From assembly GCF_039522665.1 (NCBI RefSeq), contig NZ_BAAADV010000001.1, positions 558,001-622,000 on the forward strand: a DNA stretch of 64,000 bases, read 5' to 3'. Below are positions 6,620-54,412 of the stretch, one piece after another. Each line of letters starts with the position of its first letter. Within the stretch, counting starts at the first letter, position 1. Under the pieces are notes generated by a model that was given only the letters and a program-made list of their open reading frames with translations, was not told where the DNA came from and did no database searches. The stretch is from Natronoarchaeum mannanilyticum. Its GTDB lineage: Archaea > Halobacteriota > Halobacteria > Halobacteriales > Natronoarchaeaceae. Made by a program: the position numbers and the translations under genes.

Positions 6620-6745
6620 CTGGGCAAGACGGTCGCGCTCACTTCGTTCGCGCGCTGCGACTTGCTGGCTCGAATTCGCGCGTCGTGATTTACACACCCA
6701 CTACGGACTCCTCGCTACGCTCGTCGTTGCGAAGTGGGGTGAAAA

Positions 6746-30038: not shown

Positions 30039-30208
30039 GGTGCTCGGCTAGGCGAGGGCATCGCTGTGAGGGACAACGTCCGGGCTCCGCGCGGTCGTAG
30101 TCGAGCAACTGTAGTTACCAGTGGAGAGCACATCACCACGAAATCCCTCGCCCCGCCGACCGCGCCTCGCCCTTTCAGTCTGCCGGAAGACTCGCTGCGC
30201 TCGTCTTC

Positions 30209-30245
30209 CGAGCCCTGCCTCGCTTCGCTCGGCAGGACGCCAGGA
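30209..30245 (-). repeat. 37-nt hairpin unit, inverted copy of 7681-7717
   Basis: Read on the minus strand this unit matches 7681-7717 in 35 of 37 positions. The two differences are on opposite sides of the same stem pair (CCTGCC/GGCAGG instead of CCTGTC/GACAGG), so pairing is kept. Confidence 0.75.
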
Positions 30246-50261: not shown

Positions 50262-50840
50262 TCAGGGCTGCTCGCCGGTCTCGATAGAGAACTCGCCGCG
50301 GGGGTACGCCACGCAAGTGAGCGTGTAGCCGTCGGACATCTCGCTCTCGCCGAGCATCGACTGGTTGTCGTGCTCGACCAGCTCGTTGGCGTCGCCGTCG
50401 ATCTGGCCGGCACACGAAACGCACTGGCCCTGGCGACAGGCGTAGGGGAGGTCCCAGCCTTCCTCCTCGCCGCGGTCGAGGATGTTCTCGTTGTTGGCGA
50501 TCTCGATCGTCTCGCCCTCCTTGACGAACTCGATCTCGTAGTACTCGATCTCGTCTTCGGGGATGTCGGCGGGGCCGCTGCCGCCCGAACCGCCCTCGCC
50601 GCCCTCTTCGAGCTCGCCGCCGGCTTCGCCGCCGCCGATGGCGCCCGCCGGGGCGCCGCCGCCGATCGAGCGGTTCATCGGCTCGGGGAAGTCGGTCTCG
50701 GGGACGCTCTCGGCGCGTCGGTCGAGAACCTGCTGGGAGATGTCTTCGTTTGCGGTCCAGCCCGTGCCCCGCGAGAAGTGCATGAGCACGGCAACCAGGG
50801 TCAGTCCGATCCCGATAGCGACCCCCAGTTCGTTCACCAT
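50262..50840 (-). CDS. Membrane-anchored 2Fe-2S ferredoxin
   Basis: The 192-residue protein has one membrane helix at the N-terminus (NELGVAIGIGLTLVAVLMHF), a Gly/Glu-rich linker (about residues 60-95), and a plant-type 2Fe-2S domain: ENILDRGEEEGWDLPYACRQGQCVSCAGQIDGD with Cys-x4-Cys-x2-Cys, and a last Cys in TLTCVAYPRG. It should donate electrons at the membrane. ATG 50840 (MVNELG) is supported by TTAAA about 28 nt upstream; the longer in-frame form reads through repeat DNA. Confidence 0.9.
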   Translation of the reverse strand: MVNELGVAIGIGLTLVAVLMHFSRGTGWTANEDISQQVLDRRAESVPETDFPEPMNRSIGGGAPAGAIGGGEAGGELEEGGEGGSGGSGPADIPEDEIEYYEIEFVKEGETIEIANNENILDRGEEEGWDLPYACRQGQCVSCAGQIDGDANELVEHDNQSMLGESEMSDGYTLTCVAYPRGEFSIETGEQP

Positions 50841-50908
50841 ATGCGCCCAGATTCGAAGTGCGGGTTTAATTGGTTTGTGTTTCCCGACCACCTTTTCCCT
50901 ACCACCTT

Positions 50909-51029
50909 TTTCCCGTTCGGGTGGCCTCGCTGCGCTCGGCCACCTCTCACGGCAAAAACGTGGGCGAAAAAGGCCGATTCCTCACTTCGTTCGGAATCGG
51001 TGAAACGCCTCGCTTCGCTCGGCGTATGC
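50909..51029 (+). repeat. Two-hairpin dispersed element, copy 1
   Basis: It begins CCACCTTTTTC, contains a hairpin with arms GGTGGCC/GGCCACC around TCGCTGCGCTC, then AAAAACGTGGGCGAAAAAGG, a second hairpin with arms GATTCC/GGAATC (50976-50981 and 50993-50998), and a third CGCC/GGCG around TCGCTTCGCTC. Its last 76 nt (50954-51029) correspond base for base in length to 54337-54412. It lies in the ferredoxin-gnd intergenic region. Confidence 0.78.
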
Positions 51030-51056
51030 TCCACCACTAGCCCCGTTGTCGGACCG

Positions 51057-51953
51057 CTACTCGTCTTTCCGCGCGACTTCGTGCCGTCCGAAGCCGTAGC
51101 GAAGCCGGTTGGCGAGGCGGCGGGAGAACCGGTCGTCGCGGCTGGCGAACCGCTCGGAGAGCGCCTGGTAGATCAGCGGAAGCGGCACCTCCTGTTCGAG
51201 CGCCTCCTGAACGGTCCAGGTTCCGGTCGAGCCGCCGGCGACGTAGTCGTCGACGTCGCCGAGGTCGGAGCCCTCCTCGCGGAATGCCTCCTCGCAGAGT
51301 TCGAGCAGCCACGAGCGGATCACGGCGCCGTTGTTCCACGTGCGCGCAACGGCTTCCAGATCGAGATCGTAGCGGCCGTTCGCGAGGAGCTCGAAGCCCT
51401 CACCGTAGGCCTGCATGAGCGCGTACTCGACGCCGTTGTGGACCATCTTGACGTAGTGGCCGCTGCCGGCGGGGCCCATCCGGTCGTGCCCTTCCGGACC
51501 GGTCGCGACGGCGTCGAAGATCGGCGTCAGCTCGTCGTAGGCCCACTCGGGGCCGCCGATCATCAGCGAGAACCCGAGCTCGGCGCCGGCGGGGCCGCCG
51601 CTGGTGCCGCAGTCGAGATACGCCGCGTCGGTCGCCTCCGCTCGACGCACCGAGTCCTCGAAGTGGGAGTTGCCGCCGTCGACGACGATATCGTCGGCGT
51701 CGAGCGAGCCCTCCAGATCGTCGAGCGCGGCGTCGACCGCTTTGCCGGCAGGCACCATCAGCCAGATGCGCTTCTCGTCGCCGAGTGCCTCCGCGAGGTC
51801 CGTGACGGAGTCGGCCGGCGTCGCGCCGGCGTCCGCCGCCGCCGCGACCGCGTCGTCGTCGAGGTCGAACGCCACCACGTCGTGGCCCGCGTCGAGCACA
51901 CGCTCGACGACGATCTGTCCCATCCGTCCGAGTCCGATAACGCCGAGTTGCAT
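51057..51953 (-). CDS. gnd: 6-phosphogluconate dehydrogenase (decarboxylating), short NAD-type
   Basis: The 298-residue enzyme oxidises and decarboxylates 6-phosphogluconate to ribulose-5-phosphate. MQLGVIGLGRMG is the NAD-binding fold, VVDGGNSHFEDS the conserved GGNS motif, and GPAGSGHYVKMVHNGVEYALMQAYGEGFELL the catalytic block with Lys and Asn. The length fits the short GndA-type enzyme. Haloarchaea run an oxidative pentose phosphate route with this enzyme. The gene is isolated; the 3' end adjoins a repeat element. Confidence 0.93.
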   Translation of the reverse strand: MQLGVIGLGRMGQIVVERVLDAGHDVVAFDLDDDAVAAAADAGATPADSVTDLAEALGDEKRIWLMVPAGKAVDAALDDLEGSLDADDIVVDGGNSHFEDSVRRAEATDAAYLDCGTSGGPAGAELGFSLMIGGPEWAYDELTPIFDAVATGPEGHDRMGPAGSGHYVKMVHNGVEYALMQAYGEGFELLANGRYDLDLEAVARTWNNGAVIRSWLLELCEEAFREEGSDLGDVDDYVAGGSTGTWTVQEALEQEVPLPLIYQALSERFASRDDRFSRRLANRLRYGFGRHEVARKDE

Positions 51954-52060
51954 GGAACACCCTCTCCCGGGGACGTAGGTAGTGATTGCGATTCGTCGGC
52001 CGACGCCGTCGAACGGTACAGCCTCGAGACGCGGGACGCTGAACGGTTTCGTCGCCCCAC

Positions 52061-52093
52061 CTATAGTATAATTATAATTGGAACTATAGTATA
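52061..52093. promoter_or_regulatory. Direct repeat CTATAGTATA upstream of the exported amylase gene
   Basis: CTATAGTATA occurs at 52061-52070 and 52084-52093, 23 bp apart (about two helical turns), 54-86 bp before the amylase ATG. Spacing and position suit a protein binding site upstream of the core promoter. The whole 52060-52135 stretch is strikingly AT-rich. Confidence 0.5.
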
Positions 52094-52115
52094 TTCATCT
52101 AACAATTAAGAATAA

Positions 52116-52121
52116 TTTTAA
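52116..52121 (+). promoter_or_regulatory. TATA box of the exported amylase gene
   Basis: TTTTAA is centred about 28 nt before ATG 52147, giving a leaderless start downstream of the direct repeats. Confidence 0.55.
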
Positions 52122-52146
52122 CTATCATGGTTGTATATGGCGAGTC

Positions 52147-53439
52147 ATGCCATCCGATCACAACGGACGTGGCACGACGTACAGCGCGGACAGACGAACA
52201 GTGCTGAAAGGTATCGGCGCGACGGGCGCGGCCCTCGCCGGTGGCGCAGTTGCGTCCGGCACGGGCGCCGCCGCGATCGGCGACTCGGCCGTCCTCCAGT
52301 TTTACCACACCAACTGGTCGGACGTCGAGAGCCAGGTGAGCGCAATCGCGGACGCCGGGTTCGACGCGATCCAGCTACCGCCCGCACAGGAATCGAAGCT
52401 GACGCGCGCCGATCAGGACGACGACCACCACCCGCCGCTGGGGTATCAGCCGATCAATCACAAGAACTTCGACAGCGAGTTCGGCACGGAAGCCCAGTAC
52501 CAGTCGCTGGTCGACGCCGCGCACTGGAACGGGCTGAGCGTCATCGCCGACGCGGTCATGAACCACATGGCCGCCGGCGTCGACTTCTCGAACTTCCCGT
52601 ACTTCAGCTACAACGACTTCCACCACAACGGCGGGATCGACGACTACAGCGACGACTGGCAGGTCGAGAACTGCGACCTCTCGGGGCTGCCGGACCTCGA
52701 CCAGGACTCGAGCTACGTTCGCGGCCAGCTCAAAGACTACGTCGACAAGTACGCCAGCCTCGGCGTCGACGGCATCCGCTGGGACGCCGCCAAGCACATG
52801 TCGGAGTCGTTCTTCGCCAACCACGTCAGCTCGTGGGCGAACGAACACGGCCTGTACTCGGTCGGCGAGGTGCTCCAGGGTTCGAAGAGCTACTGCGACG
52901 GCTACGCCCAGACGGGGATGTCGGTGACCGACTACCCGCTGTACTACACGATGAAGGAGGACGCGTTCCACCAGAACGGCGACCTCAGCACGCTCGACGG
53001 CGGCGGCTACGTCGACTGGAACTCCTACAGAGCGATGACGTTCGTCTCGAACCACGATAGCGACCCGCCGCAGTACCAGAAGATGGCCTACGCGTACATC
53101 CTGACCCAGGAGGGCTATCCGCGGGTGTACCAGAAGGACATGCCCTACTGGGACGGCGACATCAAGGATCTGCTGTGGGTCCGACGGAATCTCGCGGCCG
53201 GATCGGCGATCACGCGACACGCCAGCCGGGACCTCTACATCTTCGAGCGGGAGGGGAACCTGCTCGTCGGGCTCAATCGGTCGGGCTCCTGGCAGGGCAA
53301 GTGGGTCCCCACGAGCTGGACCAACACCGAGCTCTCGGACTACGTCGGCAACAACGGCGACAACTTCACGACGAACGGCGACGGCTGGGTGCAGATCTGG
53401 ATCCCGCCGCGAGGGTGGGTCTGCTACGCGCCGGCCTGA
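52147..53439 (+). CDS. Tat-exported alpha-amylase, GH13
   Basis: The 430-residue protein starts with a Tat signal (DRRTVLKGIGATGAALAGGA, residues 15-34), so it is exported folded. The GH13 regions are present: region I ADAVMNH (134-140), region II GIRWDAAKH with nucleophile Asp213, region III VGEV with Glu241 acid/base and region IV VSNHD with Asp304. The C-terminus is a short beta domain (DNFTTNGDGWVQIWIPPRGWVCYAPA). Expected substrate is starch or glycogen. It ends the AT-rich promoter region described separately. Confidence 0.95.
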   Translation: MPSDHNGRGTTYSADRRTVLKGIGATGAALAGGAVASGTGAAAIGDSAVLQFYHTNWSDVESQVSAIADAGFDAIQLPPAQESKLTRADQDDDHHPPLGYQPINHKNFDSEFGTEAQYQSLVDAAHWNGLSVIADAVMNHMAAGVDFSNFPYFSYNDFHHNGGIDDYSDDWQVENCDLSGLPDLDQDSSYVRGQLKDYVDKYASLGVDGIRWDAAKHMSESFFANHVSSWANEHGLYSVGEVLQGSKSYCDGYAQTGMSVTDYPLYYTMKEDAFHQNGDLSTLDGGGYVDWNSYRAMTFVSNHDSDPPQYQKMAYAYILTQEGYPRVYQKDMPYWDGDIKDLLWVRRNLAAGSAITRHASRDLYIFEREGNLLVGLNRSGSWQGKWVPTSWTNTELSDYVGNNGDNFTTNGDGWVQIWIPPRGWVCYAPA

Positions 53440-53629
53440 ACGACGAGCGCGCGACCGCTGCTCGGCTGGGTGAGACCGGGCGCAGGTCGGCTTCGTCGGT
53501 CACCGCGGCTGACGGTCTTCTTTTGCAGCTTCGGAGCCTCACGAGGTCGGACTGAACGCTAACGATGGAAGCGACGATCGGCTGCTAGAATCGTACGCAA
53601 AAATCGAATCGACGGATCGAAACCGACTC

Positions 53630-54064
53630 TCAGCGGTACCAGGAACGCTGGTCGAAGATGTACGCCAGGCACGCGACCGAGATCGCGAGCGGGACGAGCC
53701 ACTGGAGCAGGCCATCCGCGTAGGAGACGGGCACGTTGGAGCTCGTCTGGACCCACACGAGGCAGCCGAGGAACAGGACCGATTGCGCCCCGAACATCGC
53801 CAGTGCGGCCGGCCAGGCCCACGACTTGATGCTCCAGATGCCGCCGATGACGTACAGCTGAACAACCGTCAGCGCCATCGACGCGAAGACTACCCACGCG
53901 AGACCGTCGATCGAGAGGAGCGAGAAGTTGAAAAAGCCCGCCCCGGCCATGTCCGAGAGCCCGATCATCGCGAAGGCCATCCCGAACAGCACCAGATATC
54001 CGTCTACGACACAGGCGGCCCGAATGCCCGCGGGGACCGATGTCAATTTCTCGTCTGCGGTCAT
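53630..54064 (-). CDS. Four-helix membrane protein, family unknown
   Basis: A 144-residue protein with four hydrophobic segments: GYLVLFGMAFAMIGLSDM, DGLAWVVFASMALTVVQLYVIG, WAWPAALAMFGAQSVLFLGCLVW and LLQWLVPLAISVACLAYIF. ATG 54064 (MTADEKLTS) is chosen over an upstream TTG because TTTTTA lies 27 nt upstream. No function recognised. Confidence 0.75.
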   Translation of the reverse strand: MTADEKLTSVPAGIRAACVVDGYLVLFGMAFAMIGLSDMAGAGFFNFSLLSIDGLAWVVFASMALTVVQLYVIGGIWSIKSWAWPAALAMFGAQSVLFLGCLVWVQTSSNVPVSYADGLLQWLVPLAISVACLAYIFDQRSWYR

Positions 54065-54212
54065 GTCCACCAAGTCGGAGCGCCACCGTAAAAATTTTTC
54101 TAACGCAAGATTACCGAATTCCTCATTCTTTCAACTCGCGGTCGGGCTGCCCGAGGACGGCGACGAAACGAAGCCCTTAACTCCCGGAGCGGCATTCGTG
54201 GAAATGCACATC

Positions 54213-54283
54213 GGGACCGTGGGGTAGTGGTATCCTATGCGGATGGGGTCCGTATGACCCGAGTTCGACTCTCGGCGGTCCCA
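54213..54283 (+). tRNA. tRNA-Pro, anticodon GGG
   Basis: A 71-nt cloverleaf: acceptor GGGACCG/CGGTCCC with discriminator A, anticodon stem UGCGG/CCGUA around AUGGGGU (anticodon GGG, reads CCC and CCU), T-arm CCGAG-UUCGACU-CUCGG. CCA is not encoded and no intron is seen. Its 3' end runs into CTCCACC and a T-run. It is a second proline isoacceptor in the window. Confidence 0.95.
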
Positions 54284-54285
54284 CT

Positions 54286-54412
54286 CCACCTTTTTCATCG
54301 TCGGGTTCGCTCGCTAGGCTCGCGAACCACTCCTCGAAAAACGTGGGCAAAAAAGGCCGATTCCGAACGAAGTGAGGAATCGGTGAACCGCCTCGCTTCG
54401 CTCGGCGGATGC
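54286..54412 (+). repeat. Two-hairpin dispersed element, copy 2
   Basis: It starts CCACCTTTTTC as copy 1 does and has a first hairpin GGTTCGC/GCGAACC with a TCGCTAGGCTC loop, so the stem differs in sequence from copy 1 but still pairs. The second hairpin keeps GATTCC/GGAATC arms (54359-54364 and 54376-54381), but the loop sequence is the reverse complement of that in copy 1. The last hairpin is CGCC/GGCG around TCGCTTCGCTC, as in copy 1. Confidence 0.78.
54291..54295 (+). terminator. T-run after tRNA-Pro(GGG)
   Basis: TTTTT follows the tRNA 3' end by 7 nt and is a likely archaeal U-tract terminator. It lies at the start of the repeat element. Confidence 0.55.

Follow-up and report, generated by a model that had tools for sequence, protein, structure and literature searches.

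Three-hairpin elements at gene 3′ ends in Halobacteria: putative bidirectional terminators that may enter genomes with the end of an orthologous gene

The 64,000 nucleotides of the Natronoarchaeum mannanilyticum genome (G000) analysed here, referred to as the window, contain two similar elements, and the question raised by this locus is whether they form a pair set apart by an inverted hairpin loop, as was originally predicted, or represent something larger. The first copy, found by BLAST and by model match, occupies 50901–51029 (+ strand) between the Fer2-domain gene at 50262–50891 (− strand) and the 6-phosphogluconate dehydrogenase stop (51057, − strand); it is full length, being composed of a core, hairpin 2 (hp2), GTGAA, hairpin 3 (hp3) and ATGC. 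Its core (50901–50972, +) reads CCACC-T5C ... hp1 ... A5-CGTGGGC-GA5-G, is matched by the covariance model R1 with 85.4 bits (G000:C1:608901-608972) and contains the TTTTTC (T5C) tract at 50907–50912 (+), recognized from the sequence and from the T5C terminator test of PMC7237163, hairpin 1 (hp1) at 50920–50944 (+), and A5 tracts at 50954–50958 and 50967–50971, which are T5 tracts on the − strand. It is followed by hp2 at 50974–51000 (+), with the arms CCGATTCC/GGAATCGG and the loop TCACTTCGTTC at 50982–50992 in the common orientation, and by hp3 (ACGCC/GGCGT) with the subsequent ATGC at 51005–51029 (+). The second copy, also full length and found in the same two ways, lies at 54285–54412 (+), directly 3′ of tRNA-Pro(GGG) (54213–54284), with its core at 54285–54355 (+; R1 match of 70.4 bits, G000:C1:612285-612355), its T5C tract at 54291–54296 (+), beginning 7 nt past the tRNA 3′ end, hp1 at 54304–54328 (+), hp2 at 54357–54383 (+), with the arms of the first copy and the inverted loop GAACGAAGTGA at 54365–54375 in the rare orientation, and hp3 (CCGCC/GGCGG) with ATGC at 54388–54412 (+).

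The two copies are 79% identical (BLAST, E-value 6e-24), which is far above chance, and both carry CCACCTTTTTC (50902–50912 and 54286–54296). Much of the original prediction was borne out: all of the motifs quoted as common to both copies are present, the 3′ parts are each 76 nt in length (50954–51029 and 54337–54412), the second copy does follow tRNA-Pro(GGG) immediately and the gene to the left of the first copy does encode a 2Fe–2S (Fer2) domain, in agreement with its description as a ferredoxin gene. The first copy, however, had been placed at 50909 with a length of 121 nt, and its actual start is 50901/50902 and its length 128–129 nt. A shorter second CCACCTTTTCCC is seen at 50888–50896 of the window, 14 nt before this copy, and another copy in G000 (L003) has a similarly extended left side (GACCTTTTCCCCTACCAC); from their sequences, a longer left end may be common to both. 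Elsewhere in the window, at 6638, 7695, 30191–30231 and 35796, the loop motifs of E (CTCACTTCGTTCG, CTCGCTTCGCTCG and CTCGCTGCGCTCG) recur in isolated hairpins that lack the core.

The two elements are not a pair, but belong to a large, dispersed haloarchaeal family of short three-hairpin, non-coding elements, here named E. The similarity is not limited to the two loci: R1, a model of the E core with 65 positions built from 11 copies, finds 19 copies in G000, and BLAST finds 12 places there, a count that includes the query itself and the inverted hp2 match. The same model matches 29 of 40 relatives and, in a sample of 292 genomes of the class Halobacteria, 243 genomes, from 71 of 77 genera. 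Of 147 genomes sampled across the phylum, 17 match, each being G000 or a member of the same order; the unmatched genomes comprise eight named ones of the same order, 12 of other groups and 110 further ones. Copies of E are also present on five haloarchaeal plasmid records, with no annotated feature beneath the match. A viral origin was rejected, the phage collection being without a match; four IMG/VR contigs carry a core pattern. A known structured RNA was likewise rejected, as between 50000 and 55000 of the window only the tRNA exceeded an Rfam gathering score, the other matches (up to an E-value of 10) being below threshold. The papers searched contained no description of E, and the family is apparently undescribed in that literature.

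The structure of E was derived from 158 copies, consisting of all 19 from G000, the best R1 matches from the relatives and the class sample, and four ileS loci; these are not a random sample, because they were chosen from the best model scores and include orthologs in related genomes, so that counts over them are not independent. The full-length element is about 125 bp, with three covarying hairpins, conserved linkers and T5 tracts facing both ways. On the + strand the core reads CCACC (or CGACC) – TTTTTC – short arm – TCGGGT – hp1 – ACC.CTC – short arm – AAAAA – CGTGG (or.CTCGG) – GC – RAAAAA, in which the outer arms, the T5 and A5 tracts and the inner arms pair with each other and unpaired bases stand between them at fixed places. 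Among 108 distinct rows, 96.6% of the cells are paired, with 333 two-sided changes against 13–72 for slid controls and a covariation score of 0.374 against at most 0.055; G–T occupies 26 and A–C nine of 2152 cells, numbers that favour neither RNA nor DNA. In the 80 of the 158 copies that were folded, the core folds better on the − strand in 79, with RNA and DNA parameters alike. By the pattern used, 34 distinct copies are full length, both window copies among them, and continue from the core with hp2, GTGAA, hp3 and ATGC; their alignment has two-sided changes in 18 of 31 predicted pairs, and the outer hp3 pair is A–T in 23, C–G in ten and C–T in one. The ‘rewritten’ first stem of the original prediction is real inasmuch as the hp1 arms do differ between the window copies (GGTGGCC/GGCCACC versus GGTTCGC/GCGAACC), but this is normal variation across the family, with the pairing preserved.

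Within the window pair, the hp2 arms are identical over 8 bp and the 11 nt loop TCACTTCGTTC is the exact reverse complement of GAACGAAGTGA, so that BLAST returns a 27 bp exact inverted match between the copies at hp2. An enclosed and exactly inverted loop of this kind would be expected of a live or programmed switch, or of a template-switch signature defining the pair, but the family makes such a reading barely credible. The 11 nt loops are mostly TCRCTNCGYTC, and TCACTTCGTTC itself occurs in five of 115 hp2 loops and two of 141 hp1 loops; exact inversion is therefore less improbable than it appears, because the loops are drawn from a small set of variants. The hp1 loops are mostly three bases, TNC on the + strand (TTC 41, TCC 13, TGC 12 and TAC 7 of 141) and GNA on the − strand. 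Loop orientation is forward in 100, reverse in 13 and undecided in 28 hp1 hairpins, and forward in 49, reverse in 12 and undecided in 54 hp2 hairpins, and only one of the 13 pairs of copies with common hp2 arms, the window pair, is inverted; flipping is thus rare and a switch improbable. In the congener G001, the site of the second copy is empty and that of the first holds a decayed relic only. Hairpin-loop inversion is a known mutational type, and identical arms around inverted loops are most simply explained if, in the past, the hp2 loop flipped once between two related copies; this was plausibly a single event in the history of the second copy, which has the rarer orientation. To this extent the predicted flip of a segment between inverted repeats stands, although it is rare family-wide; live inversion of the loop is not supported, and for the family as a whole the inversion is a minor matter.

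The T5 tracts and the position of E point to a different role; these features, like the duplicated gene ends, are larger than the loop inversion and were no part of the original prediction. TTTTTC is the first + strand T5 tract in 127 of the 158 copies, − strand T5 tracts are present in 156 and a second − strand tract in 149, against a background of 0.44 T5/A5 tracts per kb in flanking DNA. Genes were typed by a rule based on G+C content by codon position, by which 56 copies have only an antiparallel gene ending on the right, 38 only a parallel gene ending on the left, 29 both and 35 neither, the last remaining untyped. Measured from the left end of E, the stop codon of a parallel gene is at −2 to +5 nt in 53 copies. 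With tracts reading both ways and gene ends on either side, E is well placed to end transcription from both sides. In Haloferax volcanii, a T5C insert terminated 95% of transcripts (PMC7237163), and E likewise has TTTTTC directly downstream of genes (first + strand T5 tract in 127 of 158 copies; 53 copies within 5 nt of a stop codon). The tracts of E are thus predicted to terminate transcription here, and in our own reading E is a putative mobile bidirectional terminator that would travel with gene ends.

In 58 of the 158 copies, the left end of E touches a second copy of the last 20–195 bp of the gene on its right; the other 100 have no duplicate by the same test, for which the cross-locus rate was 0.4% and pseudo-sites 550–750 nt away gave 0 of 876. 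Of the 58, nine are untyped; in each of the other 49 (45 of class R and four of class RL), a gene running antiparallel to E(+) has its end on the right of the element. The left end of E is precise, reading ..AAAAAGGTGG toward the duplicate, which starts right after GGTGG (or GGTCG); where the spacer is 4 nt, 14 of 20 cases agree with the gene in their first three bases (shuffled mean 0.74), with one additional base after these. The comparison of intact with remnant ends covers 40 non-tandem loci, 17 copies in tandem and one with no typed gene having been dropped from the 58. Of the 141 differences, 112 fall at codon position 3, with 103 synonymous; both copies therefore mostly diverged as coding sequence. 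Such coding-like divergence is in keeping with exchange between species but not with a remnant that has simply decayed. For the remnant, plain drift was rejected, as it would give about 46% third-position differences by a rough estimate, against 79% seen. The difference rate by quarter from the duplicate start to the stop is 0.033, 0.091, 0.116 and 0.129, lowest beside the junction, and this rise could partly reflect weak constraint on the C-terminus. Tandem arrays of E plus the gene-end duplicate, some with identical units, are seen at L073, L076, L044, L050, L058, L247, L248, L249 and L267, and look as if their units could be multiplied. The orientation seen at protein genes with duplicates does not hold at tRNA loci, where E and the gene are parallel; at L006 (G000:C1, ∼696075) a 23 nt exact copy of the 3′ end of tRNA-Pro(TGG) touches the left end of E and an inverted copy of the same end lies to its right.

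The intact and remnant ends were compared with relatives at ileS and at genes which, from their C-terminal sequences, we take to be hisF and polC; the names ilvD, nuoI and etfA used below were assigned in the same way. In G001, hisF runs straight into the next gene, with stop and start overlapping and without E, and in G000 a 102 nt insert ending GGTGGTTC lies between two 33 bp copies of the gene junction, which differ at one position; with the junction copied on either side, both genes stay whole. The polC site is likewise empty in G001, and the differences between the polC duplicates fit mutation of both copies after insertion. At ileS of G000, the match of the gene to G001 is about 92% before the duplicate and about 70% from there to its stop, whereas over 239 nt the remnant past E has an 88% match to the end of the G001 gene; in Haloarcula amylolytica the ileS remnant is of the H. 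vallismortis type and the intact end is of a type seen in other genera. Judged from these matches, the intact end is foreign and the remnant native in both species. E is present at ileS in four of 78 scanned loci, of which three, from different genera, have the junction GGTGGATGC in common. Genes such as ileS, ilvD and etfA were hit repeatedly, each time with a different duplicate start (234, 62 and 45 nt before the stop end in ileS; 36, 24 and 38 nt in ilvD), and at nuoI the starts are only a few bases apart. In nuoI of G000 (L011) and G001 (L082), E has the same duplicate start in both species, and the intact end resembles the remnant in its own genome more closely than the two remnants resemble each other, which suggests conversion between the duplicates.

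The reading that we prefer, with a probability of roughly 0.47, is that E elements are class-wide, putatively bidirectional terminators at gene 3′ ends that spread between genes and species and reach a genome along with an orthologous gene's 3′ end. For such an entry, which we infer, an incoming strand would pair with the resident gene via the conserved coding sequence, and the hairpin end of E would become attached to that gene tens of bases upstream of its stop codon, so that the gene would then end in the incoming 3′ end and E and the old gene end would persist as a remnant past E. The host could tolerate the arrangement, as its gene would remain complete and acquire a strong terminator. 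Against this explanation, insertions in one and the same gene have different duplicate starts, so that a new join would be needed each time, and 100 of the 158 copies are without a duplicate. The hisF site favours another possibility, to which we give less weight: that E is a non-autonomous transposable element for which wide staggered nicks produce long variable target duplications, survivors being those whose duplication covers a stop codon and foreign ends being acquired by later recombination with E-bearing orthologs. The clean empty site, the duplication around the insert and the retention of both stop and overlapping start at hisF are what this would predict, as are the precise left end and the 3 nt match to the target after GGTGG, and hisF and several loci with identical duplicates resemble plain insertion with target duplication, for which no foreign DNA is needed. 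However, a transposon would have to account for the single orientation of all 49 typed copies, most of the diverged loci would need a second process to explain the coding-like divergence, Y1 transposase does not track E copy number and, to our knowledge, variable duplications of 20–195 bp match no known prokaryotic transposase.

Two further origins can be weighed against the same loci. Slippage or unequal crossing over might have copied a unit of gene end and E in tandem, with decay of the distal E leaving gene end, E and gene end in succession, and tandem arrays do exist (the 17 duplicate-bearing copies set aside, for example at L073, L076, L050 and L247); at etfA of G002, read by eye, a good E adjoins the gene and a decayed E lies past the remnant. 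This is nevertheless improbable as a general account, since at hisF and polC the sequence past the end of the duplicate continues just as it does where the site is empty and shows no remains of a distal E, and it is hard to hold for these loci unless the distal E was precisely deleted. Homology-guided arrival is favoured over both transposition and tandem duplication because of the fixed orientation and the coding-like divergence. Descent from IS200/IS605-type transposons, which would make E a PATE, would suit a short, non-coding, hairpin-rich element with a conserved end tetranucleotide, ATGC, on one side, but is very unlikely: PATEs cause no target duplication as described in PMC3119063, five genomes with 14–21 E copies (G006, G008, G013, G032 and G035) have no Y1_Tnp (PF01797) match, and five others (G017, G018, G020, G034 and G036) have Y1 without E. 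The Y1_Tnp counts thus lend this link no support.

A bolder and more doubtful form of the preferred reading is that haloarchaeal genera exchange gene 3′ ends by an integrase-free system of which E is the end-piece: its hairpin end would be joined to a resident housekeeping gene under the guidance of homology in the last codons, tail and terminator would be replaced together and the old tail would be left as a fossil. If the preferred reading is right, one structured element would form a standard gene 3′ end in most Halobacteria and be exchangeable between species together with coding sequence, and remnants beside intact copies would be a direct, countable record of past gene-end replacement, offering a route to mosaic core genes such as ileS, nuoI, ilvD and etfA. 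The family would also provide a ready set of strong bidirectional terminators, and a concrete enzymological question would arise as to what joins the end of E to the gene.

Among known systems, bacterial REP/BIME sequences are, as is E, dispersed terminator-like hairpin repeats; REP elements depend on a relative of Y1, which does not track E, and we know of no gene-end duplication for REP/BIME or SPRITE-like repeats, unlike E. Mycobacterial MIRUs, as E, are short repeats inserted at overlapping stop and start codons with both genes left intact, but they duplicate only a few bases and are without the three-hairpin terminator. In displaced rhs gene 3′ ends, the old end is superseded by a foreign one and persists downstream of it, as proposed for E, although rhs displacement concerns polymorphic genes and E involves ordinary housekeeping genes and a conserved hairpin element. 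Bacterial SPRITE repeats, as described in PMC10969869, resemble E as dispersed, terminator-like hairpin repeats. The H. volcanii T5C intergenic terminators, as far as described in PMC7237163, share TTTTTC just after genes, but E packs T5 tracts of both strands into a conserved three-hairpin dispersed unit. The SMRs, PATEs and MITEs of Haloquadratum walsbyi, as described in PMC3119063, are, as E, short, transposase-free haloarchaeal mobile repeats with strain-specific insertions, the PATEs being palindrome-rich; SMRs and PATEs are described there as without target duplication, and SMRs as having terminal inverted repeats and often targeting other mobile elements. Judged on its own ends alone, E lacks the terminal inverted repeats of a MITE, its ends being different (CCACC versus the ATGC side) and no such repeats appearing in the 34-copy alignment, and the duplications beside it are variable (20–195 bp) instead of short and fixed in length. 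The long gene-end duplicates touched by 58 of the 158 copies set it apart from PATEs, as does the lack of Y1 transposase in the five E-rich genomes named above, and both the duplicates and the lack of prominent terminal inverted repeats separate it from SMRs. Unlike SMRs and PATEs as described there, E is found class-wide at gene ends beside long variable gene-end duplicates; it is a short, transposase-free mobile repeat that is distinct from the haloarchaeal MITEs, PATEs and SMRs, in the form described in PMC3119063, by these duplicates and by its position at gene ends.
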